Below the pieces are notes generated by a model. It worked only from the letters and a program-made list of their open reading frames with translations. It made no database searches and was not told the DNA's origin. This document shows, piece after piece, positions 6,330 through 15,856 of a DNA stretch of 28,111 nucleotides. Source of the stretch: a virus. Position 1 is the stretch's first letter, and the number at the start of each line of letters is the position of its first letter. A program made the position numbers and the translations under genes. The stretch covers positions 1 through 28,111 of the IMG/VR virus record IMGVR_UViG_3300033993_001227; one strand, given 5' to 3'.

Positions 6330-6824
6330 ATGAGATCACTTGTACGGCTATTTGCCGTTGCTCTAGTAGGGACGATTACCTTCGGCAGTATGGTTCATGC
6401 TGCTGAAGCCCCTGCCAACCCTGCGAACCCGTCAGTATCGTCTCTCTCAGAGGCTTACAGAGCGTCTGACAAGGTTCTGGTACTGCCTGTCGAGGTGGTT
6501 CCGGAGGGTGTTCCGGCAGACAAAACGAAGCGTTGCCCCCAATGGGAAGATGAGTTCGCAGAGTTCGGGCTACCCGTCCAAACGTTCTCATACATCGCAT
6601 ACAGGGAAAGCCGATGCAACCCGCTGGCTCACAACAAAACCCTGAACCGTAACGGCTCACAAGATAGGGGCTTGGTCCAGATAAATAGTGGGTGGGTCAC
6701 GGTCACGGCTAAAGAATGTGCTTCACAAAGAGGCGATCTGTCGGTACTGTTTAACGTACGGTGCAACCTTGCGGTAGCCCGATACTTATACAGGAACGGC
6801 GGGCTAAGGCATTGGAATCTATAG
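6330..6824 (+). CDS. Secreted lysozyme/soluble lytic transglycosylase-like protein
   Basis: The frame is open further upstream, but the ATG at 6330 has GGAGG four bases before it and starts a clear signal peptide: MRSLVRLFAVALVGTITFGS with a likely cleavage after VHA (~residue 24). The mature part carries a lysozyme-like core: YIAYRESRCNPLAHN with E93 as the likely catalytic Glu, DRGLVQINSGW (112-122) and NLAVARYLYRNGG (146-158). Four cysteines (69, 96, 130, 145) could form two disulfides, fitting export. It lies away from the M15 endolysin, within replication genes. It may act from outside the membrane, or it may be a virion-associated wall hydrolase; its expression timing is unknown. Confidence 0.8.
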   Translation: MRSLVRLFAVALVGTITFGSMVHAAEAPANPANPSVSSLSEAYRASDKVLVLPVEVVPEGVPADKTKRCPQWEDEFAEFGLPVQTFSYIAYRESRCNPLAHNKTLNRNGSQDRGLVQINSGWVTVTAKECASQRGDLSVLFNVRCNLAVARYLYRNGGLRHWNL

Positions 6825-6856
6825 ACGAATATCAAGACGACAACGAGGGAGAAGAA

Positions 6857-7147
6857 ATGTCGGCAGCCGAAGATTATTACAGCCTGGTAAACAACCAATT
6901 CGGTTTCACCGAGCAAGCAGCGTGTCGAGGAGCAGGCCCAGACCTGTTCTTTCTGAACGAGGAAGAAAAAGCAATCAACATTATGAAGCTTGCTGAGGCA
7001 CGAACTGTTTGTTTCACTTGCAAGGTACAAAAAGAATGTCTTGACTTTGCTGTGGAGAACAATATAAAGTCAGGTATCTGGGCAGGAACAACACCACTAC
7101 AGAGGAAGGCGTTACGACGTGAGCATAGAAACACCAATAGAGTTTGA
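6857..7147 (+). CDS. WhiB-family iron-sulfur transcriptional regulator
   Basis: ATG at 6857 is preceded by GAGGGAGAAGAA; the open frame extends upstream to 6761, but that extension overlaps the lysozyme-like gene. The 96-residue product has the four WhiB cysteines C23, C52, C55 and C61 (pattern C...C-x2-C-x5-C) that hold a 4Fe-4S cluster, followed by the family's GIWAGT turn (73-78) and a basic tail (RKALRREHRNTNR) for DNA contact. WhiB proteins bind the primary sigma factor and redirect transcription; phage copies are known to interfere with host WhiB regulation. The presence of this family is the best host indicator in the window. Confidence 0.92.
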   Translation: MSAAEDYYSLVNNQFGFTEQAACRGAGPDLFFLNEEEKAINIMKLAEARTVCFTCKVQKECLDFAVENNIKSGIWAGTTPLQRKALRREHRNTNRV

Positions 7148-7340: not shown

Positions 7341-7681
7341 CACCAGCGTTAATTGAATTGCTGGTTGACCGTCTGTGCGGAATGTACCCAACCACAAATA
7401 TCGCCCGTAACACGGTGAAGAACGCTTGGGTCAAAGACGAACTACTGCTGGACGCATCCGAAGAAGATGCCAAAGCGGTACTCAAAATGGCTGAATCATT
7501 GGGGCATTACCCGAACCAATTTGAAATCAAATCAATGTTCAACAAAGTTATGGGTGTTCGTCATGCTGAGGTTGGTTGCGATAAATGTGACAGCACCGGC
7601 TTCATCTATACCGACCCAAACTTTGAGAACGATTCAATAAAAACAAGATATGTCAAGTCATGTGAATGTAGGAGTTTCTGA
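7337..7681 (+). CDS. Possible helicase-loader-like protein with C-terminal zinc motif
   Basis: The start is a GTG overlapping the previous stop (GTGA). The 114-residue protein has two parts. The N-terminal ~75 residues (LIELLVDRLCGMYPTTN, then KNAWVKDELLLDAS, and GHYPNQFEI) resemble in pattern the short helical domain of phage helicase loader/inhibitor proteins (G39P type), in which Y-P, W and a final P-x-x-x-E/D-I are typical. The C-terminal part holds CDKCDSTGFIY and SCEC, a likely zinc site. The domain match is an inference from residue pattern only. No replicative helicase or polymerase lies in the window, so its partner may be elsewhere or in the host. Confidence 0.5.
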   Translation: MTPALIELLVDRLCGMYPTTNIARNTVKNAWVKDELLLDASEEDAKAVLKMAESLGHYPNQFEIKSMFNKVMGVRHAEVGCDKCDSTGFIYTDPNFENDSIKTRYVKSCECRSF

Positions 7682-9189
7682 TGACGTTAACTTTTGGAAG
7701 TTTGTTTGCTGGTGTCGGCGGGTTCGACATGGGTTTCGAACAGGCAGGATTTCAGTGTAAGTTTCAGGTCGAATGGGACAAGAACTGTCGCTCGGTGCTG
7801 GATCGTCACTGGCCCGATGTAGAGAAATGGGGCGATATCAGTAATGTCAACGGTCGTTTCCTGCCACCAGTTGACTGCATTATTTTCGGCAGCCCATGCC
7901 AAGACCTATCCGTTGCCGGTAAACGAGCAGGGCTAGAAGGCGAACGATCAGGTTTATTTCACGAAGCAGTACGAATCATAAAGGAGATGAGAGATGCAAC
8001 CAATGGAACTTTTCCCCGATGGACAGTCTGGGAGAACGTCGCAGGAGCTTTGTCCTCAAACAACGGACGAGATTTTGGGACAGTCGTCAATGAAATGGCT
8101 GAAGCAGGGGCGGTTGTCCAAGAATACGCTGTGTTGGACGCGCAATACTTTTCTGTACCCCAGCGACGGGTCCGCGTGTTCCTCGTCTCTTGCTTTGATC
8201 CTGCAACAGCCGAAAGATGTCCCGACCCGCTACTACCTGTCACCGAAAGCGTGCGAGGGGATACTAAGAAGGGCAAACAAAAGAGGCAAAGTGCTGCCAG
8301 AACGCTTACAGAAGGCACTGGAGGCGATGGTGGGATCGTCAACGCCATCGGAGCCAGCATCTACCACAAATCAACCGTCGTAAATCAGGACGTGAACTGC
8401 GGTCATCTTGTAACCGAAGGTGCAATACTCGGTTCCGATGTTGTTGGATCGCTCAACACTTCCGACGCAAAAATGATTAGTAACCAGTATGTGAACGAAA
8501 ACAAATGTGTTGTCGAACCATACGTGAAATCTCGTCGCGCTCAATCTGCTGATGATGACGAAACCTGGATCGAAGGCAAAGTAAACCCGACACTCAACTC
8601 ATTTGATGTTGGTGATACACGCACAACAACAGCAGTATTAGAGCCGGTGCTATTCGAGAACTCGTACCGTGATGGGGCAAGGATTGCCCACGATGGCGTG
8701 ACACAGACCCTCACCTCAAAAATGGGGACAGGCGGCGGGAACACACCCATGATTGCTATGCCAATACAAGATGGACGGGAAATCGAGAAACATCAAAACG
8801 GTTTCGGTGTTGCTTCCGATGGAGAACCTTCATACACGTTGGATCAGACCGGCGCACAAGCCGTAGCGTATTCGGTGCGTGAGGACGCTAAAGCAAACAC
8901 GTTTAGTGCCACCGAATTGGATCATGCGAACGCGTTGTCAGCGTTGCGTCCATCACCACAGTCTCATCACGCCCAAATGTTTATTGCTCAACCAATGGCG
9001 GTTAGGCGGCTCACCCCTATCGAGTGTGAAAAATTACAAGGCTGGCCGGTGGATCACACACGTTGGAAAGCTGACGGAACAGAGATGGCTGACACTCACC
9101 GCTATCGTATGATAGGCAACGGTGTCGCTTCCCCAGTAGCGAAATGGGTAGCCGAACAAATAGCAAAGGTCGAATATGCCGAAGGGTGA
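7681..9189 (+). CDS. C5-cytosine DNA methyltransferase with long repetitive recognition region
   Basis: All core C5-methyltransferase motifs are present in order: SLFAGVGGFDMGF (I, residues 7-19), FGSPCQDLSV with catalytic C73 (IV), WENV with E118 (VI), QRRVRVFLV (VIII, 161-169), RRLTPIECEKLQGWP (IX, ~441-455) and MIGNGVASPVAKWV (X, ~476-489). The enzyme methylates cytosine at carbon 5 in a specific sequence. The recognition region (~180-440) is unusually long and made of degenerate repeats of the type T-L-x(4-6)-G-x-G-G. No cognate restriction nuclease is adjacent, so it is probably an orphan modifying phage DNA against host defence. Start ATG overlaps the previous stop by one base. Confidence 0.93.
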   Translation: MTLTFGSLFAGVGGFDMGFEQAGFQCKFQVEWDKNCRSVLDRHWPDVEKWGDISNVNGRFLPPVDCIIFGSPCQDLSVAGKRAGLEGERSGLFHEAVRIIKEMRDATNGTFPRWTVWENVAGALSSNNGRDFGTVVNEMAEAGAVVQEYAVLDAQYFSVPQRRVRVFLVSCFDPATAERCPDPLLPVTESVRGDTKKGKQKRQSAARTLTEGTGGDGGIVNAIGASIYHKSTVVNQDVNCGHLVTEGAILGSDVVGSLNTSDAKMISNQYVNENKCVVEPYVKSRRAQSADDDETWIEGKVNPTLNSFDVGDTRTTTAVLEPVLFENSYRDGARIAHDGVTQTLTSKMGTGGGNTPMIAMPIQDGREIEKHQNGFGVASDGEPSYTLDQTGAQAVAYSVREDAKANTFSATELDHANALSALRPSPQSHHAQMFIAQPMAVRRLTPIECEKLQGWPVDHTRWKADGTEMADTHRYRMIGNGVASPVAKWVAEQIAKVEYAEG

Positions 9190-9301
9190 ACATTGGTCTT
9201 GTCCGCGCTGCCAACAGCGAATGATTACTCACCTTCCGATAGTGGAACCGCCAACGTGTAGTAACAAACATAAACCGATCCCGATGGTGCAAATAAAATA
9301 A
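9176..9301 (+). CDS. Zinc-ribbon miniprotein (41 aa)
   Basis: This frame begins at an ATG inside the last 14 bases of the methyltransferase gene and ends at TAA 9299-9301. The product, beginning MPKGEHWSCPRC, has CPRC near its start, then a Cys (residue 28) and a His (32) that could complete a zinc site. It is the last plus-strand gene before the convergent junction. No family is recognised. Small CxxC proteins are a recurring theme in this window, which raises its credibility. Confidence 0.55.
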   Translation: MPKGEHWSCPRCQQRMITHLPIVEPPTCSNKHKPIPMVQIK

Positions 9302-9302
9302 A

Positions 9303-9345
9303 GGGACCGCCTCAACCCGTCGGGGTAGAGCGGGGAGGCGATCCC
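9303..9345 (-). terminator. Rho-independent terminator of the minus-strand operon
   Basis: GGGACCGCCTC (9303-9313) pairs with GAGGCGATCCC (9335-9345), eleven positions with one mismatch. A small inner ACCC/GGGT hairpin lies at 9315-9326. On the minus strand the stem is followed by TTTATTTTATTT (complement of 9291-9302), as in intrinsic terminators. No T tract follows on the plus strand, so it should act mainly on leftward transcripts. Confidence 0.75.
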
Positions 9346-9351
9346 AATGGC

Positions 9352-9398
9352 GGCAACACGGTCACGGGTAGGTAACCCGCAAGCGTTTTAATGTTGCC
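9352..9398 (-). other. Structured 3' untranslated segment of the minus-strand operon
   Basis: Between the last minus-strand stop (9409) and the terminator, GGCAACA (9352-9358) can pair with TGTTGCC (9392-9398), enclosing a second perfect hairpin CGGGT-AGGTA-ACCCG (9365-9379). It could stabilise the transcript's 3' end or be a processing site. No coding frame is convincing here. Confidence 0.4.
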
Positions 9399-9408
9399 TT
9401 ACCGCTGT

Positions 9409-9645
9409 TTAGACTATCTGTAAAACACTCACCCCAACGAACCCGCTCCCGATAATGGCAGCGTTCGCGCTCTCGACGTTGGCAAAGAGATACCAGAACC
9501 GTTCCGATGTCGTGAATGTCTGCCCATTCCAACGGTGAGGCCCGGCCCACGTTTTGCCGTCTCGGTCACGAACCAACACCCAACGACTAGCCGACGGTCG
9601 AGTCTGGCGCGACGTGTAACGTCGCCATAGAATACCTAACCTCAC
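9409..9645 (-). CDS. Small hypothetical protein, last gene of minus-strand operon (78 aa)
   Basis: The GTG start at 9645 overlaps the stop of the preceding gene as GTGA, supporting translational coupling. The product has a basic N-terminus (beginning MRLGILWRRY) and a compact middle, WVLVRDRDGKTWAGPHRWNG, then TSERFWYLFANVESANAA and a short hydrophobic end. The W-V-L-V-R-D-R-D-G pattern and C-terminal helix look like a small alpha/beta fold. No family is recognised. Confidence 0.6.
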   Translation of the reverse strand: MRLGILWRRYTSRQTRPSASRWVLVRDRDGKTWAGPHRWNGQTFTTSERFWYLFANVESANAAIIGSGFVGVSVLQIV

Positions 9646-9998
9646 GCGATAGTCGCCAGTACTTGTATTCCCTCAGCCGTGATATGGCACACTTGCTGCT
9701 CGACACCGGCACTAGAGATACGTGTCTTGCCGTTCGGCTTGATATAACCCGCCTGGCGTAGCTCACTGCACCGCTTCCAATAGCAACACTTCGGGAGCAA
9801 CGCGAGGCCACTTGCGCGACCCGCCTCCTCGTCCGTGAGGTACTGCTCACTAAAGTAGGTGGCTAAGAGTTTGGCGCGTTGTGATCCGGCCCTGACCGTC
9901 ATAGCTTTAGCACCCCCCGTCGAGGTTGCCCCGTCGTTGCGGCGTACACCCAACCAACCGTTAGCGTGACCGATAGCGGCCCACTCGTCGTAGTTCAT
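9642..9998 (-). CDS. Winged-helix DNA-binding protein
   Basis: The ATG at 9998 overlaps the preceding gene's stop (ATGA). The 118-residue protein has an N-terminal ~30-residue extension with WAAIGHANGWLGVRR, then a winged-helix-like region: GSQRAKLLATYF, LTDEEAGRASGL, YWKRCSELRQAGYI (probable recognition helix) and KTRISSAGVEQQVCHITAEG as the wing. This pattern (L-T-D-x-E-A, K-R-x-S-E-L-R-x-x-G-x-I, T-R-x-S-x-x-G) recurs in phage HTH proteins linked to replication or regulation. It is the clearest DNA-binding candidate in the minus-strand block. Confidence 0.75.
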   Translation of the reverse strand: MNYDEWAAIGHANGWLGVRRNDGATSTGGAKAMTVRAGSQRAKLLATYFSEQYLTDEEAGRASGLALLPKCCYWKRCSELRQAGYIKPNGKTRISSAGVEQQVCHITAEGIQVLATIA

Positions 9999-10129
9999 TG
10001 ACTACCCCCTAACAAGTACGTGGCAACACTCCTACCCTTGTCATACCAGACAATAAACGGCTCGGCATAGTGCGCCGTAATGTCTAGCCGATATTCGATA
10101 ACCCCATGAATAAATGCGCGTAATCTCAT
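9995..10129 (-). CDS. Hypothetical 44-residue protein
   Basis: ATG at 10129 overlaps the upstream stop by four bases (ATGA), has GGAGG five bases upstream, and its own stop overlaps the next ATG in the same way. This double coupling strongly supports a real gene despite the size. The product begins MRLRAFIHGVIEY and includes AEPFIVWYDKGRSV, suggesting a small beta-rich fold. No function is recognised. Confidence 0.65.
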   Translation of the reverse strand: MRLRAFIHGVIEYRLDITAHYAEPFIVWYDKGRSVATYLLGGSQ

Positions 10130-10308
10130 TGTGCCTCCTCACATTCCACCTCAACGTCAATAAACATTTCGGTATCGTCCATACCTAGTTGCTCCGCTAT
10201 TTGCTGCAAGCCCATACGTTCGGCCTGCTCCTCATTCTCGGCGTACACGTGTGTCGTGACTACGCATAGATCGGATACCGCCGTAATGCGGTGCATTAGA
10301 TCACTCAT
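10126..10308 (-). CDS. Hypothetical acidic protein (60 aa)
   Basis: The ATG at 10308 overlaps the preceding stop (ATGA). The product starts MSDLMHRITAVSDLCVVTTH, then VYAENEEQAERMGLQQIAEQ and an acidic end with FIDVEVECEEAQ. The beta-hairpin, helix, beta order with A-x-N-E-E-Q-A is a common layout of small phage proteins of unknown role. It could be a host-protein inhibitor or DNA mimic given its acidity, but that is only a guess. Confidence 0.65.
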   Translation of the reverse strand: MSDLMHRITAVSDLCVVTTHVYAENEEQAERMGLQQIAEQLGMDDTEMFIDVEVECEEAQ

Positions 10309-10652
10309 GCCGTCACCTCCGGCGTGAACGTCAATTCAGTGACACCTAACTCCGATATCACGTCAAGCGGCCTGCAAGCGTCAGTCGGGTAATCACCCCA
10401 CGACATACCGCCCGATATGACATAATCCTTGCCCTCAATTCTAAGCAAGGTCGTCTCCCGTGAGTCGCCATACACCCATGACAAGTCCTCGATAGCTTGC
10501 GCCAGATAATCTGCCTGGTCGTCGTCGTCGATCTCGTCACCGTAGTTGTAGGCCGCACCGATCACGGCGTTGCTAAGTGTCTTTAGTCGTGCCTCCGCAA
10601 CGTGATAATCCACGTGCCTCGCGCATATTCCAATAGTCATATCTGCACCCAT
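10305..10652 (-). CDS. Hypothetical acidic protein (115 aa)
   Basis: The ATG at 10652 lies seven bases after GGGAGGGG, so it is preferred over the internal ATG at 10640. The product is acidic, with EIDDDDQADYLAQAIEDLSWVY, RIEGKDYVISGGMSWGDYPTD and a C-terminal TELTFTPEV strand. The GGMSWGDYPTDA segment is a turn-rich motif seen in small actinophage proteins of unknown function. The gene is preceded by a 96-base structured leader, and its stop overlaps the next ATG. Confidence 0.75.
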   Translation of the reverse strand: MGADMTIGICARHVDYHVAEARLKTLSNAVIGAAYNYGDEIDDDDQADYLAQAIEDLSWVYGDSRETTLLRIEGKDYVISGGMSWGDYPTDACRPLDVISELGVTELTFTPEVTA

Positions 10653-10748
10653 AAATAGACCCCTCCCAGAGTCGTTGTTACCTCACGTTGAGGTAGTCCC
10701 CGTTGCGGATCGAACCGCCACGCCCAACGGCGACGGGGGAATAGCTAT
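10653..10748 (-). promoter_or_regulatory. Structured leader RNA A (three-way junction plus hairpin plus RBS block)
   Basis: Nothing codes between the stop at 10749 and the ATG at 10652. In minus-strand order the gap holds a three-way junction (10740-10697: outer TCCCC(C)GT/ACGGGGA, arms CGCC-GTTG-GGCG and GCGG-TTCGAT-CCGC), a perfect hairpin TACCTCA-ACG-TGAGGTA (10695-10679), then CTCTGGGAGGGG (10671-10660) and the start codon. The same order occurs at 11548-11450. A riboswitch-like or protein-bound leader is possible. The folds are by eye. Confidence 0.55.
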
Positions 10749-11129
10749 TCAGTCGTTATGGCAAGCCTCACAAATAAGCAACGTGCCGCTATTGGTTATC
10801 ACCTCATACTCCGCGTCGTTGCCGGTGTCACAATTCTCACACTGCTTGACTACTTGACTAGGGGTAGGTAACTTGCCGGGATAACGGCCATATTTTTCAG
10901 ATACCAAAATACCGTACAGATTACGTTCGCTATCACTCCAGTCGTCGAACGTGTCGTGATCCTCCGCGCTCCAGTCGGTAGTGTCAATAAGCACCAACGT
11001 TCGAGCGTCGCCGAACGTACCGCTATCAGTATCGAGCCATAACACGGCAGGACGATAGTCGTTCATTGGGTCATGGAATTGTGGCAGCACCCTGATCCAC
11101 TCATTGAGTATGTTCGCGTCGGTACTCAT
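10749..11129 (-). CDS. Hypothetical zinc-binding protein (126 aa)
   Basis: The frame extends to 11141, but the ATG at 11129 overlaps the preceding TAA (TAATG) and has GGAGG just upstream. The acidic N-terminal ~95 residues begin MSTDANILNEWIRVLPQF and include AVLWLDTDSGTFGDARTLVL and a NLYGILVSEKYGRYPG stretch. The C-terminus has CENC and CEAC (about residues 96-123), a four-cysteine zinc ribbon. No family is recognised. Confidence 0.75.
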   Translation of the reverse strand: MSTDANILNEWIRVLPQFHDPMNDYRPAVLWLDTDSGTFGDARTLVLIDTTDWSAEDHDTFDDWSDSERNLYGILVSEKYGRYPGKLPTPSQVVKQCENCDTGNDAEYEVITNSGTLLICEACHND

Positions 11130-11449
11130 TACGCCCTCCAACGTGGATAGTCACGGATCACGGCAGGGCCGTTTATGACTACTACCCTCGACGATAAGCC
11201 CGCACGTTCACTATCAGTAATCTCGAACGTATCGAAAAATATCGCCGCGTCACAGTCACCCTCCAAAAATACGCGGGTATTTAGCACGTATGAAAACACG
11301 CTAATCCCGTCGCCGCCATGTTCCTTGTCTGCCTGATCCGCTTGACGGGCCGCCCATAGTGGCACTTGTAGCCACTCATGCCCACTATCAGTGAACCAAC
11401 GGCACTCCGCCAACCACTCCGCCCTATCTGCCTGAATAATTGTATTCAT
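11129..11449 (-). CDS. Hypothetical protein (106 aa)
   Basis: ATG at 11449 follows the ribosome site GGGAGGGG by eight bases. The product begins MNTIIQADRAEWLAECRW, then WLQVPLWAARQADQADKE, and ends in a strand-rich segment VVVINGPAVIRDYPRW. It is acidic with many Trp residues. No domain is recognised. The gene is preceded by leader RNA B and coupled to the next gene by TAATG. Confidence 0.7.
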   Translation of the reverse strand: MNTIIQADRAEWLAECRWFTDSGHEWLQVPLWAARQADQADKEHGGDGISVFSYVLNTRVFLEGDCDAAIFFDTFEITDSERAGLSSRVVVINGPAVIRDYPRWRA

Positions 11450-11548
11450 AATGTCGTCCCCTCCCAGAGACGTAACCTCGACACCTTGCCGAGATAGCTC
11501 CCGCGCCCGTCATGATCGGGCCGCCCCCTACGGGGTACGGGATACTTA
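11450..11548 (-). promoter_or_regulatory. Structured leader RNA B, equivalent of leader A
   Basis: This 99-base gap between two minus-strand genes contains, in transcript order, a three-way junction at 11542-11499 (outer TCCCG/CGGGA, arms CCCC-GTA-GGGG and GCCCG-ATCATGA-CGGGC), a hairpin ATCTCG/CGAGGT (11495-11475, one G-U pair), and CTCTGGGAGGGG (11469-11458) before the ATG at 11449. The last block is identical to that of leader A; the stems differ in sequence but keep pairing. Confidence 0.55.
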
Positions 11549-11725
11549 CTACCAACCGCGCTTGTTTATTTGCTCCCGTCGTCGCTCCACTATCTCGCGG
11601 GTATGTCTGGCACGTTCAGCCGGGGTTGGCCTGCGGTCAAGCCAACGAACTAGCACCCACGTCCCCCACAATGGGGAGCAAAGTAGCAACGCCCCTGCAC
11701 CAATGGCTAACAATTCTCTAATCAC
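11549..11725 (-). CDS. Small membrane protein with basic cytoplasmic tail (58 aa)
   Basis: A GTG at 11725 overlaps the preceding stop (GTGA), with GGAGGG directly upstream. The product begins MIRELLAIGAGALLLCSPLW: a hydrophobic helix of about 20 residues continuing through GTWVLVRW, followed by a strongly basic tail (DRRPTPAERARHTREIVERR). This is a single-pass protein, probably with the basic tail inside the cell. The cysteine after LLL is not a good lipobox. The role is unknown; small early membrane proteins often alter host envelope or exclude other phages. Confidence 0.65.
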   Translation of the reverse strand: MIRELLAIGAGALLLCSPLWGTWVLVRWLDRRPTPAERARHTREIVERRREQINKRGW

Positions 11726-11964
11726 CCCTCCACCCCCTCAAGAATTGCCGTGTTCATTCCTAACGAGCTAACACGCGGATCAAAATAGTCAATGATCCGC
11801 TCCACCGTCCACGCCTCACCCATATCAGGATCGAACGCGCCCGCCTGATCGAGATAACGTTTAGCACGTTCGGCTGCCACACGGATCGCCTCCGCCTCAC
11901 TATCCCCCAACCCAATGACCGCATAATACGTGTCAATTTGGGCGACATAATAAACCTGGCTCAT
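11722..11964 (-). CDS. Hypothetical protein (80 aa)
   Basis: ATG at 11964 overlaps the upstream stop (ATGA). The product starts MSQVYYVAQIDTYYAVIGLG and continues with a helix AEAIRVAAERAKRYLDQAG, then EAWTVERIIDYFDPRVS. The strand-helix-strand pattern with G-D-S-E-A-E-A-I resembles other short proteins of this operon (for example that at 13519-13734), hinting at shared ancestry. No function is recognised. Confidence 0.7.
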   Translation of the reverse strand: MSQVYYVAQIDTYYAVIGLGDSEAEAIRVAAERAKRYLDQAGAFDPDMGEAWTVERIIDYFDPRVSSLGMNTAILEGVEG

Positions 11965-12254
11965 GATCTAGCCTCCGCGAACCGTTTAGCGTCGATAGCC
12001 TCCAACGCCATGAGGTGATCGCGCCACGCGTTACCGCTAACCGCTATCGGAGCGGGAGTGTGATCCACCTCCAACGGCAACGGATCACGGGTTAGCACGT
12101 CGAACGCCTCACGCCTGCACCTCCCCGCATATGCCTGCCACACCTCGCCCATAGGATCAGGGCCGCAAGCCTTAGAATTACGCTCCGCCCGCTTAGCCTC
12201 CGCCTCATGCGCCTTAGCCCATGCCGTGAGGTTCACTTGCTTACGTCGCGCCAT
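11961..12254 (-). CDS. Hypothetical basic/helical protein (97 aa)
   Basis: ATG at 12254 overlaps the preceding TAA. The N-terminal half is basic and helical (beginning MARRKQVNLTAWAKAHEAEA, then KRAERNSK) and the rest contains GEVWQAYAGRCRREAFDVLT and an EVDHTPAPIAVSG segment. It could bind nucleic acid, but no motif is decisive. Its position inside a tightly coupled run of genes supports it as real. Confidence 0.65.
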   Translation of the reverse strand: MARRKQVNLTAWAKAHEAEAKRAERNSKACGPDPMGEVWQAYAGRCRREAFDVLTRDPLPLEVDHTPAPIAVSGNAWRDHLMALEAIDAKRFAEARS

Positions 12255-12409
12255 TATCTACCTCCGAACGCGTCGAGAATATCCCGCAACATGTCGGCGG
12301 GAGTGTCGTTCTCATGTTTAGCCGCATGACACGGGAGGCAGATATTGCCGGGAAACATATCCAACGGGGCAACGTCCACCCCGCAAGCCGTACAGGTGAG
12401 GCTATCCAT
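12254..12409 (-). CDS. Zinc-ribbon miniprotein (51 aa)
   Basis: The frame extends upstream to 12559, but that part overlaps the well-supported neighbour; the ATG at 12409 shares a base with that gene's TAA (TAATG), so it is taken as the start. The product has CTAC and CLPC spaced 20 residues apart (C6, C9, C25, C28), with a further His near the second pair, a classic four-Cys zinc ribbon with HNH-like spacing. A helical acidic tail follows (ADMLRDILDAFGG). It is probably an adaptor or DNA/protein-binding module. Confidence 0.65.
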   Translation of the reverse strand: MDSLTCTACGVDVAPLDMFPGNICLPCHAAKHENDTPADMLRDILDAFGGR

Positions 12410-12705
12410 TACGCACCAACCTTTACCGCGTCCACACACACACCAACCGCCCCGCCGTCGATCATGCTTGACACCCAATGCCCGCCCCAACCCGCACGAC
12501 GAACATACTCCGCAATAGCTACCGCGTAATTCTCGCCGATACTCAATGAATAATCCCATGACACGGTAACTACGTGAGGGTCACGCCCGTATATGTTCGC
12601 CTCATAACGGCTTACCTTGATACGGCTGCCCCTGTGATTAGTCACGGGCAGATACTTAGCGCGTAACGTAACGCGGTAAGTTTCCGATACTGATAACAAT
12701 TCCAT
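12409..12705 (-). CDS. Hypothetical protein, first gene of the distal minus-strand unit (98 aa)
   Basis: The frame opens at 12735, but the ATG at 12705 carries the ribosome block AAGGGGTAATC immediately upstream, identical to that before the gene at 13734. The product begins MELLSVSETYRVTLRAKYLP and has a strand-rich core (RIKVSRYEANIYG, VVTVSWDYSLSIG) and a helix (YAVAIAEYVRRAG) before a Gly-rich end. No family is recognised. It is the first gene after a strong promoter, so it is likely highly expressed early. Confidence 0.7.
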   Translation of the reverse strand: MELLSVSETYRVTLRAKYLPVTNHRGSRIKVSRYEANIYGRDPHVVTVSWDYSLSIGENYAVAIAEYVRRAGWGGHWVSSMIDGGAVGVCVDAVKVGA

Positions 12706-12756
12706 GATTACCCCTTTATATTGTGAACGGGTCACGCCTCCGCGCCCGTAATAGTG

Positions 12757-12785
12757 AGATTATCCCAACTATCGCCCCGTGTCAA
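12757..12785 (-). promoter_or_regulatory. Sigma-70-type promoter for the distal minus-strand unit
   Basis: On the minus strand TTGACA (complement of 12780-12785) and TAATCT (complement of 12757-12762) are separated by exactly 17 bases. The start of transcription near 12750 gives a ~45-base leader with an ACGGG/CCCGT hairpin before the ATG at 12705. The segment GCTTGACACGGGG is identical to that in the promoter at 13801-13829. Confidence 0.75.
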
Positions 12786-12820
12786 GCCATGAACCTGATC
12801 GCCCCCTACGGGGTCACGGG
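12776..12820 (-). repeat. Third three-way-junction element (C), overlapping the promoter
   Basis: In minus-strand order: outer stem CCCGTG (12820-12815) with CACGGG (12781-12776); arm CCCC-GTA-GGGG (12813-12803); arm TCAGG-TTCATGG-CTTGA (12798-12782, one G-U). It shares the 14 bases ACCCCGTAGGGGGC exactly with element B. Its 3' side contains the -35 box, so it could act as DNA, or as RNA in read-through transcripts from 13801. Confidence 0.45.
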
Positions 12821-12837
12821 TAACCGCTAACTATTTT

Positions 12838-13005
12838 TTATGCGCTCCAAGTGTCGCCAATTTCGAGGGGGTTATCACACTCCCCGCAATACTCCCCGCA
12901 CTCACAGTCCCGCGCCGGGCCGCCACAGTAAGGGCATGACCCGCCAACGACAACGGGCAACAATACCCGAACCTCATTACACGTATTACAGTACGCCTCG
13001 ATCAT
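12838..13005 (-). CDS. Multi-cysteine zinc-binding miniprotein (55 aa)
   Basis: ATG at 13005 overlaps the stop of the upstream gene (ATGA) and the frame ends at TAA 12838-12840. The product carries nine cysteines in CNTC, CPYC, CEC and CGEC arrangements over residues 6-43, enough for two zinc sites. It begins MIEAYCNTCNEVRVLLPVVV and ends DNPLEIGDTWSA. The doubled ribbon suggests a protein- or nucleic-acid-binding module. It is too short for routine calling but well supported by overlap and cysteine spacing. Confidence 0.65.
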   Translation of the reverse strand: MIEAYCNTCNEVRVLLPVVVGGSCPYCGGPARDCECGEYCGECDNPLEIGDTWSA

Positions 13006-13151
13006 GCCCGCCCCCTCCGCATAATCTCCAACTCATGCGCGTCGTCGAGACACTCATTACACTCACCCTCACGGTTCATGCGTGACGCGTCCCAATGGAT
13101 CGGGCAAATAGGAACTAGATCACCGTCGTAGTTCATAACGTCTACCCTCAT
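13002..13151 (-). CDS. Small zinc-binding protein (49 or 44 aa)
   Basis: Two in-frame ATGs compete. The one at 13151 overlaps the previous stop (ATGA), as elsewhere in this operon; the one at 13136 has GAGGG eight bases upstream. The shared product has CPIH and CNEC (about residues 16-34 from the longer start), a likely CCHC zinc site, in an acidic context (REGECNECLDDAHELEIM). Its stop overlaps the next gene's ATG. No function is recognised. Confidence 0.6.
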   Translation of the reverse strand: MRVDVMNYDGDLVPICPIHWDASRMNREGECNECLDDAHELEIMRRGRA

Positions 13152-13516
13152 GAGATCGCCCCACACTCACACTTGGAAACGTCCTCAACAACATAGCCAC
13201 AATACGGGCAAGCCTGATCTATTTCGTCCCATACCCAACCCCACGAACCGATCGGGAACACCTCAACACCGTTCACCATATGACCCGCCAACGCTTGCCA
13301 ACCCGTCCCGTCCTCAAATTGGATAACACCGTCTAACACACGGTAACCGATCTCCATTTCGTCCTGATCCTTAGCCATATGCTCCAACATGCGGAGACAC
13401 TCACCCAACGGAAACGACGGGCAAGCCCAACCGTTCCACCTCGACGACGGAATATGAACACCCGCATACGACGTTTCACCGTCGTCGTAACTGAACCTTG
13501 TAGCAACGTAATCCAT
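13148..13516 (-). CDS. Hypothetical protein with C-terminal zinc ribbon (122 aa)
   Basis: The product begins MDYVATRFSYDDGETSYAG and continues VHIPSSRWNGWACPSFPLG, a strand-rich, Trp-rich domain, then a helix LRMLEHMAKDQ and a region IQFEDGTGWQALAGHMVNGV. The C-terminus holds CPYCGYVVEDVSKCECG, a zinc ribbon. The overall layout (small globular domain plus Cys tail) recurs in actinophage accessory proteins of unknown function. The ATG at 13516 follows a G-rich ribosome site, two bases after the upstream stop. Confidence 0.75.
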   Translation of the reverse strand: MDYVATRFSYDDGETSYAGVHIPSSRWNGWACPSFPLGECLRMLEHMAKDQDEMEIGYRVLDGVIQFEDGTGWQALAGHMVNGVEVFPIGSWGWVWDEIDQACPYCGYVVEDVSKCECGAIS

Positions 13517-13518
13517 GA

Positions 13519-13734
13519 TTATTTTCCCCCCGTCAAAATACCCAATTCATGACCCTCACGAACAACAACAAAATACGACTTCCATTCATTGTTGCCTAAA
13601 TAATTTTCCCACGTATTCACCGCCATATCGTTCGCCTCCGCCTCACAACTAAACGAACCGATTACCTCAACACCCCAACAATTAGCGGGCGTGTCGAAGT
13701 CACCGAACCCCTCGATAACAATATATTTCTCCAT
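13519..13734 (-). CDS. Hypothetical protein, first gene of the minus-strand block (71 aa)
   Basis: ATG at 13734 is preceded by AAGGGGTAATC, the same block as before 12705. The product begins MEKYIVIEGFGDFDTPANCW, then GVEVIGSFSCEAEANDMAVN, and ends SYFVVVREGHELGILTGG. The strand-helix-strand order and the S-x-E-A-E-A helix resemble the protein at 11722-11964. It follows a near-consensus promoter directly and is probably an immediate-early product. No function is recognised. Confidence 0.75.
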   Translation of the reverse strand: MEKYIVIEGFGDFDTPANCWGVEVIGSFSCEAEANDMAVNTWENYLGNNEWKSYFVVVREGHELGILTGGK

Positions 13735-13794
13735 GATTACCCCTTATTTAGTAGCCCGTACCGCTACGGGATCGCCCTAACCAATTAGCGCGAC
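13735..13794 (-). promoter_or_regulatory. Structured 5' leader of the proximal minus-strand unit
   Basis: The expected ~60-base leader contains a perfect hairpin CCCGTA-GCGG-TACGGG (13771-13756 in minus order) and a small CTAA-TTGG-TTAG hairpin just upstream, then AAGGGGTAATC before the ATG. It matches the leader at 12706-12750 only in the final block. Confidence 0.45.
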
Positions 13795-13800
13795 ACACAC

Positions 13801-13829
13801 AATATACAGACACAATGCCCCCGTGTCAA
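13801..13829 (-). promoter_or_regulatory. Strong sigma-70-type promoter for the minus-strand block
   Basis: On the minus strand, TTGACA (complement of 13824-13829) and TATATT (complement of 13801-13806) are 17 bases apart, close to the ideal. It drives leftward transcription starting near 13794 into the gene at 13734. Confidence 0.8.
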
Positions 13830-13848
13830 GCAACAAAATACCGCCCTA

Positions 13849-13908
13849 CAGATCGGCAGCCACTATCACTAAACGAGATCGGCAACTATCACTAAACGAG
13901 ATAGGCGG
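13849..13908. repeat. Iteron-like direct repeats
   Basis: ACTATCACTAAACGAGAT occurs at 13862-13879 and again exactly at 13885-13902, a 23-base period. Each copy is followed by CGGC or AGGC, and a partial third copy (GATCGGC) precedes the first. The repeats lie directly upstream of the minus-strand promoter, so they could be operator sites or replication iterons. Confidence 0.65.
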
Positions 13909-13929
13909 ATCACCTAGCTTGTTACTCAT

Positions 13930-13951
13930 GGGTAAGTTACCCGGCGGTAAC
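13930..13951. repeat. Overlapping palindromes with three GGTAA half-sites
   Basis: GGGTAA-G-TTACCC (13930-13942) and GTTACC-CGGC-GGTAAC (13936-13951) share their middle arm, so only one hairpin or one protein dimer could use it at a time. This is typical of a regulatory operator. GGTAAC-like sites also occur at 9371-9377 and 12819-12824. Confidence 0.5.
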
Positions 13952-14334
13952 ATAGCTCACGGTGGGTGGGGGTGGGGTCACGGTGAGTGAGAACGCGGTA
14001 AGTAGTCGATCGGTCACGTACCGCAACCCGGCGAACACACGTTCGGCAGCCACACGGCAGGCGGGGGTATGCCGAGACGCGTGGGGGTATAGATATATAT
14101 ATGGGTGTGTCTCTGTGTGTGGTTTTGTGACCACTCTGAGTGGTGGGGTGTGTGGTTGTGCGGCTCCACCTTGGGAGGTGGGTTTGGGGTTGTTGGTGGT
14201 CGAGTTGATATTCACATACGTGTGTGTATCTTTCTACCAGTGGGTTAGGGATGTGTGTTGCTCCCCCCACGGTTCGCTCTCTGTGAGCAGGTCGCCGTAG
14301 CTAGTTTCTTTTAGCCGACACCTTGTTTGGTGAG
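13952..14334 (+). other. Non-coding G/T-rich control region
   Basis: The plus strand is strikingly rich in G and T (for example around 13960-13980 and 14101-14200) and no frame gives a credible protein. It contains two near-identical GGGGGTAT blocks (14063-14070, 14083-14090), an AT run at 14088-14102, and two perfect hairpins: ACCACTC-T-GAGTGGT (14130-14144) and CCACCT-TGGG-AGGTGG (14166-14181). It may hold an origin, a packaging site or a late-operon control region. Confidence 0.5.
14205..14232 (+). promoter_or_regulatory. Candidate plus-strand promoter
   Basis: TTGATA (14205-14210) and TATCTT (14227-14232) are 16 bases apart and would start transcription near 14239, toward the methyltransferase-terminase operon. 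The match is fair but not strong. Confidence 0.35.
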
Positions 14335-14469
14335 ATGACGTTCACCGCGCTGCTTGAACCAGTAAATAGTTCATCGACCCAGGTTCCCCTGTTTATGCCC
14401 CGCCACCTGCAAACGTGGTACAGCCATGAAGATTGCTTCGTGTGCCGTCATCCCGACGGGTGTGCGTAG
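14335..14469 (+). CDS. Possible small Cys/His protein (44 aa)
   Basis: An ATG at 14335 opens a 44-codon frame ending at TAG 14467-14469. The product begins MTFTALLEPV and ends with CFVCRHPDGCA preceded by H31, a compact Cys/His cluster that could bind zinc. The amino-acid make-up looks protein-like, unlike the flanking G/T-rich sequence. The ribosome site is weak (TTGGTGAG) and there is no coupling to a neighbour, so it may be spurious. Confidence 0.4.
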   Translation: MTFTALLEPVNSSSTQVPLFMPRHLQTWYSHEDCFVCRHPDGCA

Positions 14470-14568
14470 AGTGTAGCAGATGAAATCAGTGTTGGTGGAT
14501 GTGAGGAGGACCGGAGCCATCCAGTTCATTTAAGTGCTGTTGCTCTACGGCACACCCACCAACGTGTG

Positions 14569-14574
14569 TATAGT
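14569..14574 (+). promoter_or_regulatory. Possible -10 box for a leaderless methyltransferase transcript
   Basis: TATAGT lies seven bases before the ATG at 14582, so transcription would begin at or next to the start codon. There is no Shine-Dalgarno sequence before that ATG. No good -35 box is seen at the normal distance. Confidence 0.35.
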
Positions 14575-14581
14575 AGCAGTT

Positions 14582-15856
14582 ATGAGGGATGTAAATTTGT
14601 TGCTTGGTGATTGTCGTGACCGGCTCAAAGAACTACCAGACAACTCGATTGACAGCATTGTGACTGACCCACCGTATGAGCTTGGGTTTATGGGTAAGAG
14701 TTGGGATGCGTCGGGTGTGGCTTATGACGTGAGGGTGTGGCAGGAATGTTTGCGCGTGTTGAAACCTGGTGGACACATGCTCGCTTTTTCAGGTTCACGC
14801 ACATATCACCGCATGGCTTGCGCTATCGAGGATGCAGGGTTTCAGATTCGTGACCAGATTATGTGGGTGTATGGCTCAGGGTTTCCAAAGTCGTTGAATA
14901 TCAGTAAAGCGATTGACAAGGCTGCTGGTGCAGAGCGTGAGGTTGTTGGTAGTTATGAAACACACGACATTCGTAACGCAGGTCTGATGGATCGCAAAGG
15001 TTCAATGATGGTTGATGTGACTGCCCCTGCTACGGCTGAGGCTAAAGAGTGGGATGGTTGGGGTACAGCGTTGAAGCCTGCGCATGAGCCGATTGTGTTG
15101 GCTCGCAAGCCGTTGGTGGGGACTGTCGCTAACAATGTTTTGACGTATGGTGTTGGCGGGTTGAACATTGACGGATGCAGAGTCGCCCACCAATCAGAAG
15201 AAGATAGAGCGAGTGCAACACCTCAAGGAAAAGTAACTAGCAACAAAATGGCTGGTTCAGCACCTGATGTTTACGATGCAGGAAGAGTGGACGTTGACAG
15301 ACCTGACACAGCACTTGGTCGTTTCCCTGCGAACTTCATTCATGACGGATCGGACGAAGTATTAGAACTATTCCCTGACACTAAGGGTGGAACATGGAAC
15401 ACCACTAAAGGCGCACGACATTTCAACAATGATGGTGAGCCAACAGGGTATGCAACTTCTAAATCTGATAGTTCAACGGGTTCTGCTTCACGGTTCTTTT
15501 ATTGTGCTAAAGCCAGCAAGAAGGATCGCAACGAAGGCTTAGATGGATTTTCCGAGGTTCGTTCTGGCGGTATGTCTGCAACGATTGAGGGTTCAATGCT
15601 TACTGGTAGTGGAAACCAACGAACAACAACCAATAAAAACCATCACCCAACGGTTAAACCAACAGACCTCATGCGCTACCTGTGCAGACTGATAACCCCA
15701 CCAAACGGCACAGTCCTTGACCCATTTACAGGTTCCGGTTCAACAGGTAAAGCAGCTGTGCTGGAAGGATTTAGTTTCATTGGTGTTGAACAGTCAGAAG
15801 AATATATTGCGATTGCAGAAGCTCGTATAAAGTCTGTGTATGACAGCGGGGCGTAG
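14582..15856 (+). CDS. Beta-class DNA methyltransferase (adenine-N6 or cytosine-N4)
   Basis: The frame opens at 14534, but the ATG at 14582 gives MRDVNLLLGDCRDRLKELPD, the normal start of this family. TDPPYELGFMGKSW (D29-P-P-Y32) is the catalytic motif. LKPGGHMLAFSGSRTYHRM follows, and DPFTGSGSTGKAA (~379-391), the AdoMet-binding motif, comes last: motif IV before motif I is the beta-class order. Between them, after EPIVLARKPL, lies a long recognition insert including GRFPANFIHDGS and FFYCAKASKKDRNEG, typical of phage enzymes of this type. The base modified cannot be read from the sequence. No restriction partner is nearby. The 3' end overlaps terminase by 17 bases. Confidence 0.9.
   Translation: MRDVNLLLGDCRDRLKELPDNSIDSIVTDPPYELGFMGKSWDASGVAYDVRVWQECLRVLKPGGHMLAFSGSRTYHRMACAIEDAGFQIRDQIMWVYGSGFPKSLNISKAIDKAAGAEREVVGSYETHDIRNAGLMDRKGSMMVDVTAPATAEAKEWDGWGTALKPAHEPIVLARKPLVGTVANNVLTYGVGGLNIDGCRVAHQSEEDRASATPQGKVTSNKMAGSAPDVYDAGRVDVDRPDTALGRFPANFIHDGSDEVLELFPDTKGGTWNTTKGARHFNNDGEPTGYATSKSDSSTGSASRFFYCAKASKKDRNEGLDGFSEVRSGGMSATIEGSMLTGSGNQRTTTNKNHHPTVKPTDLMRYLCRLITPPNGTVLDPFTGSGSTGKAAVLEGFSFIGVEQSEEYIAIAEARIKSVYDSGA

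Follow-up and report, generated by a model that had tools for sequence, protein, structure and literature searches.

The leftward operon encoded in the viral DNA analysed here (IMG/VR record IMGVR_UViG_3300033993_001227, positions 1 to 28,111; this whole 28,111-nt stretch is referred to as the window) keeps a few long non-coding gaps among its overlapping genes, which raises the question of what these gaps hold. A preliminary description of the window had reported two of them, 96 nt (10653-10748) and 99 nt (11450-11548) long and both on the minus strand, and these lengths proved exact. The architecture ascribed to both, a three-way junction followed by a hairpin, was recovered when each leader was folded alone, with a further hairpin around the ribosome site. 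Twelve identical bases, CTCTGGGAGGGG, are indeed common to both leaders and occur exactly twice in the window, in these two gaps (0 expected, 100 shuffles), but they are not a free ribosome site: they make up the arms and loop of the last hairpin, H5 (CUCU-GGGA-GGGG). Large gaps are likewise few in the operon, as had been noted, although a third one, 12706-12837, had been missed. The elements in the three gaps and the neighbouring genes are listed here, with scores from the covariance models R1 and R2 described below:

10653..10748, minus strand: element A (type A), R2 67.5 bits
10738-10733/10703-10698, 10732-10729/10724-10721 and 10718-10715/10708-10705, minus strand: stems P1, P2 and P3 of the element A junction
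10694-10689/10685-10680 and 10674-10668/10663-10657, minus strand: hairpins H4 and H5 of element A, with the H5 loop GGGA at 10667-10664
11450..11548, minus strand: element B (type B), R2 99.2 bits
11542-11537/11504-11499, 11535-11532/11527-11524 and 11521-11517/11509-11505, minus strand: stems P1, P2 and P3 of the element B junction
11495-11487/11483-11475 and 11472-11466/11461-11455, minus strand: hairpins H4 and H5 of element B, with the H5 loop GGGA at 11465-11462
12722..12823, minus strand: third element (diverged, class P, upstream-most), R1 32.4 bits, R2 65.8 bits, E 9.6e-12
10305..10652, minus strand: gene behind element A, 115 aa
11129..11449, minus strand: gene behind element B, 106 aa
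12409..12705, minus strand: gene behind the third element, 98 aa, PHROG 3199
11549..11725, minus strand: gene before element B, 58 aa

The third element has GGAG in the loop of an H5-like hairpin, and its Shine-Dalgarno sequence AAAGGGG lies downstream of that hairpin. For the two leaders described earlier, the minimum free energy z-scores were only -1.9 and -2.7, with energies moderately better than those of shuffles, so that folding energy alone is unconvincing and the case rests on comparison between copies. Patterns taken from parts of the leaders, scanned against IMG/VR, yielded further copies in other contigs, and model R1, searched against contigs encoding a relative of the window's terminase, gave many diverged ones. 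Model R2, built from 41 diverged copies, enlarged the set, to which a final pattern scan added a few more contigs. About 58 distinct copies were found with the covariance models in relatives of this actinophage, discounting near-duplicate contigs, of which there were several; the E-values of the models are rough because calibration was short.

These copies covary extensively. Among 11 hand-aligned copies, 98.4% of the cells were paired and 11 of the 31 pairs had changed on both sides, whereas sliding the 3' partners by 1-3 columns as a control reduced pairing to at most 55% and both-side changes to at most 2 pairs. With 41 copies, in an alignment fitted to the model, both-side changes appeared in 28 of 31 pairs, and 97.1% of the cells were paired compared to 70% after shuffling. 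Independently, 14 diverse copies were aligned with MAFFT and folded by RNAalifold; the junction and H4 emerged again, and both-side changes were seen in 18 of 24 pairs. Moreover, stems P1-P3 contained 41 G-U cells against 3 A-C cells, which points to an RNA of the operon strand and not to DNA or the opposite strand, and all matches in the terminase-anchored loci (49/49) lay on the operon strand. As judged by these comparisons, the gaps hold a structured sense-strand RNA of about 100 nt, present in multiple copies per operon before unrelated genes. The earlier proposal of a conserved cis-acting leader is strongly supported by this covariation, by the sense-strand G-U bias, by the placement from stop to start codon and by conservation in related phages.

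The core of the element is formed by the three-way junction (P1/P2/P3) and hairpin H4, usually followed by a second hairpin, H5, that presents the Shine-Dalgarno sequence. P1 carries an invariant CC...GG, the P2 tetraloop is, for example, GUAG or GUUG, and the P3 loop contains UC; P1 is followed by R-C-K-A, with C and A invariant, and then by H4, whose sequence is very variable. A-type and B-type copies of one phage have this structure in common at an identity of only 60-67%. Comparison across related phages revealed conservation outside the ribosome site too, the absence of which had been named as an argument against a leader, and the best-kept part was the three-way junction. The dispensable part is instead the ribosome-site hairpin: H5 is absent and the Shine-Dalgarno sequence free in L220:6539, L146:10080 and L313:901, the first two being examples of type E copies, which carry a free AAGGGG, and the core thus does not need H5.

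A three-way junction with a ribosome-site hairpin after it could also be read as a metabolite riboswitch, in which the junction would bind a small molecule and switch access to the ribosome site. This reading appears highly improbable, since the junction strands are only 0-2 nt long and leave little conserved room for a ligand pocket, and the targets are unrelated uncharacterised proteins with no common metabolic targets. Nor did Rfam provide a match: no family reached the gathering threshold in window positions 9000-14500, where the only two matches at E<=10 were weak and outside the elements, and none matched in 7 related loci.

Where H5 is present, its outer pairs are compensated between copies (G-C to A-U, C-G to U-A and A-U to U-A in the hand alignment), which argues that the stem around the Shine-Dalgarno sequence is selected. 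The loop reads GGGA, AGGA or AUGGA in those types with H5 that were inspected, and the GG(GG) that comes next lies in the 3' arm; in predicted ensembles the GGA is unpaired and the following GG is paired. Such an arrangement would make the ribosome site tunable or blockable, and on the basis of this hairpin it is plausible that the element acts on translation. The same loop is what sites of the CsrA/RsmA type would offer, with CsrA binding the GGA of a hairpin over the Shine-Dalgarno sequence. We disfavour this explanation and give it next to no weight, as the loop GGA follows from the Shine-Dalgarno sequence itself, and CsrA (PF02599) was not found in 12 phage records by a search in which three control genomes were positive.

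The position of the element within the operon is as regular as its fold. In most copies the element starts 3-14 nt past the stop codon of the gene upstream, and its 3' end coincides with the next start codon or lies within about 20 nt of it. The gaps after the first gene of the window operon, obtained with a simple home-made gene caller, are 2, -4, -4, 132, -1, -1, -4, -4, 99, -1, 96, -4, -4, -4 and -4 nt; those of 132, 99 and 96 nt hold the three elements and are the only large ones, the other genes overlapping by 1-4 nt. Each element therefore appears to open a block of translationally coupled genes. Gaps of 85 nt seen in four relatives look by eye like missed short genes and not like elements.

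The proteins encoded behind the copies fall into 28 unrelated families, and certain of these families are also found without the element, which ties it to a place in the operon more than to a gene. A duplicated gene-plus-leader cassette had been considered in the preliminary description, together with the remark that the two downstream proteins show no clear similarity. The remark was borne out by profile alignment (hhalign probability 0.15%), and these unrelated profiles, along with the 28 families, lead us to reject duplication of gene plus leader. On the upstream side, homologues of the 58-aa gene (11549..11725) in other phages often have an element after them.

Between phages, the element is on average 87-89% identical. 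Its two flanks, by comparison, often score close to the roughly 50% obtained with shuffled sequences, and downstream genes are exchanged at the element. This pattern would suit a DNA-level recombination linker, that is, a boundary sequence kept for the swapping of blocks by homologous recombination. However, a pure linker needs sequence identity and not compensatory changes, A- and B-type copies within one phage have diverged widely despite their common structure, and G-U pairs lie far above A-C pairs; an RNA role could itself give rise to the exchange as a side effect. A linker is thus very unlikely. Less so, yet still unlikely, is a function in mRNA processing or stability, in which the structure would be cut by a double-strand RNase or would protect the downstream message from exonucleases, setting block-specific expression levels. 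A compact and stable structure that lies exactly between gene blocks, is repeated and does not depend on gene identity would serve well in this way, but such a function by itself leaves unexplained both the conserved loop bases (the UC of P3, and the C and A that come after P1) and the compensated Shine-Dalgarno stem.

Separate promoters, with transcripts starting downstream of the structures, had been put forward as a finding that would contradict the leader. The only copies to which this could apply are the upstream-most ones, which often contain within the element a promoter-like sequence of actinobacterial type (TTGAC, 17 to about 19 nt, TA(A/G)TCT). The promoter-like sequences of the window are these:

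12757..12785, minus strand: promoter-like sequence inside the third element, TTGACA (12785-12780), 17 nt, TAATCT (12762-12757)
13801..13829, minus strand: predicted main promoter of the leftward operon, TTGACA-17-TATATT, 11/12 consensus positions, from a scan that overall was not above chance

A strict promoter pattern (17-18 nt), which misses longer spacing or CTCGAC, matched 7 of 73 rows, all of them upstream-most copies, and no shuffled sequence; a looser pattern matched 11 copies. Interior copies were discarded as promoters, the strict motif being confined to the upstream-most ones. In the promoter-bearing copies the junction is still paired and the G-U bias kept, supporting that upstream-most junctions are probably transcribed from farther upstream too. 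Just upstream of the predicted main operon promoter, a 23-nt repeat, GCCACTATCACTAAACGAGATCG, is present in two head-to-tail copies (91%) at 13859-13904 and has an operator- or iteron-like appearance.

The most likely role of this uncatalogued structured RNA family in the leftward operon, to which we assign about an even chance, is the cis control of translation starts of coupled gene blocks. Each copy would reset and control translation initiation of the first gene in a coupled block, and the remaining genes of the block, overlapping by 1-4 nt, would follow by translational coupling. The three-way junction, with its invariant unpaired bases, would probably be what a common trans-acting factor recognises. 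This role is at odds with those copies that lack H5 and have a free Shine-Dalgarno sequence, and transcripts from the promoter-like sequence in the upstream-most copies would be without the junction. The best candidate for the trans-acting factor would be the first of two proteins encoded in the same operon:

9409..9645, minus strand: sp78, small arginine-rich orphan protein of 78 aa, candidate RNA-binding partner
9642..9998, minus strand: winged helix-turn-helix protein of 118 aa, PHROG 18663, MarR/PadR-like fold

Both genes are adjacent and lie downstream of the elements. When the gene content of 9 element-bearing full records was compared with that of 10 lacking ones, they were the only operon genes present in all of the former and none of the latter (9/9, 0/10), the remaining top-ranked rows being overlaps of these two genes or antisense frames. 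By HMM, sp78 was found in 10/10 element-bearing records (one diverged) and in 0/10 lacking records (Fisher p 1.1e-5, uncorrected for phylogeny). Among element-bearing loci it was present in 23 of 26, including 5 diverged ones that lack the winged-helix gene, and the three loci without it were short contigs (4-5 kb); a weak partial junction directly precedes the sp78 gene itself in L277 and L316. The sp78 proteins of these phages are 78-94 aa long with an arginine-rich N-terminus, from which RNA binding can be guessed; searches of PHROG, Pfam, PDB and isolated phages gave no match of note, and the structure model was poor (pLDDT 55). On that strand, phages lacking the element show nothing like this compact leftward operon, so the co-occurrence may stem from a tie of sp78 to the operon and not to the RNA. 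More tentatively, element and protein could make up a two-part phage system, in which a dedicated sp78 would read all copies of the junction RNA and coordinate translation or elongation across the operon, with blocks being swapped at the RNA.

Processive antitermination, of the HK022 put or lambda N/nut kind, has several of the same components in its favour. The nascent junction RNA, with or without sp78, would modify RNA polymerase so that it reads through terminators and Rho sites along the operon, and proximity to start codons would reflect genome compaction only. The operon is of early type, with small genes and structured elements on the nascent RNA, its upstream copies contain promoter-like sequence, and the co-occurring arginine-rich protein recalls proteins of the N type. 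HK022 put, which lies near early promoters and has two stem-loops in about 70 nt (PMC9378689), and the element are alike in being phage cis RNAs of about 70-100 nt with several stem-loops, in early operons and in more than one copy per genome, but the element, of about 100 nt, combines a three-way junction with one or two hairpins and always adjoins start codons. Clear copies of the element number up to 4 in about 4 kb, and each of them adjoins a start codon, which sits poorly with a mechanism in which put reaches terminators at least 10 kb away (PMC9378689); moreover, the Shine-Dalgarno hairpin covaries on its own, and Rfam matched no described RNA. We consider antitermination rather unlikely.

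The element was detected in 12 of 25 related full records (E<=0.1), with 1-4 copies per contig and about six weak ones each in the diverged contigs L277 and L316. Relatives with and without it occur inside each terminase identity group (about 100%, 97-98%, 86-87% and 77%), which argues for repeated joint gain or loss, and from this distribution the early region seems to be exchanged between phages as a whole. Contigs L254, L255, L276, L281, L284 and others, with terminases 77-100% identical, are without the element and sp78 and, as judged with a crude gene caller, without a compact leftward operon. Near the 3' end of the leftward operon, L270:6085-6239 and L273:4711-4865 contain long, strong hairpins with T-rich stretches after them; these are probably terminators. 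A WhiB gene in the window (Pfam), together with the promoter type, suggests an actinobacterial host; the contig encodes this WhiB protein and two DNA methyltransferases (C5 and N6/N4) at 6761-7147, 7681-9189 and 14534-15856. Against isolated phages, blastn queries with the three window elements and one type-D copy returned noise-level fragments or nothing. No match was found in 396 Actinomycetota genomes, a set without a positive control genome and hence uninformative, and 23 linear-pattern matches in genome contigs look like chance, none showing the junction by eye. A tRNA or tRNA remnant was also discarded (ARAGORN, 0 genes), although the type-A P3 loop reads GUUCGAUC.

Hairpins over ribosome sites are bound by proteins in translational operators such as that of the MS2 coat protein. 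The element has in common with these operators a ribosome site in a hairpin and a possible phage-encoded binder; it differs in its many sites before unrelated genes and in that the binder is only a candidate, and the Rfam MS2 model did not match it.

The closest analogue appears to be the Start-Associated Sequences and their extended form (SAS/ESAS) of cluster K mycobacteriophages and Microbacterium cluster EF phages (PMC3203893, PMC7302621). SAS are 13 bp long, GGGATAGGAGCCC or GGGAAAGGACCCC (PMC3203893, PMC7302621), and ESAS are imperfect inverted repeats of 17 bp, in which the authors of the cluster K study saw little support for mRNA hairpins (PMC3203893). In both cases a conserved ribosome-site block stands before genes of different families (28 for the element) in actinophages, often with a further conserved element immediately upstream of the block; however, SAS/ESAS consist of 13-bp blocks and 17-bp inverted repeats, and the element of a covarying three-way-junction RNA. 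The cluster K consensus GGGATAGGAGCCC had no match in the window with up to 3 mismatches allowed, and the best score of model R2 on TM4 (cluster K, 34000-52700) was at noise level (12.9 bits, E 0.23), so that membership in SAS/ESAS was discarded on sequence features.

We file the element as a new RNA family within a known kind, that of repeated start-associated elements and structured phage leaders acting in cis. Start-associated sequences that recur within actinophage genomes have been on record since 2011, with no mechanism attached to them, and the present family adds what SAS-type sequences are without, namely strong covariation establishing an RNA structure and a co-occurring candidate protein. 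With natural variants that lack the Shine-Dalgarno hairpin or contain promoter-like sequence, it becomes directly testable why actinophages carry repeated elements where genes start. The element looks like a reusable control element, an RNA part seemingly workable before almost any gene. As a minor observation on the published SAS consensuses GGGATAGGAGCCC and GGGAAAGGACCCC (PMC3203893, PMC7302621), their GGG can itself pair with CCC around the ribosome site.
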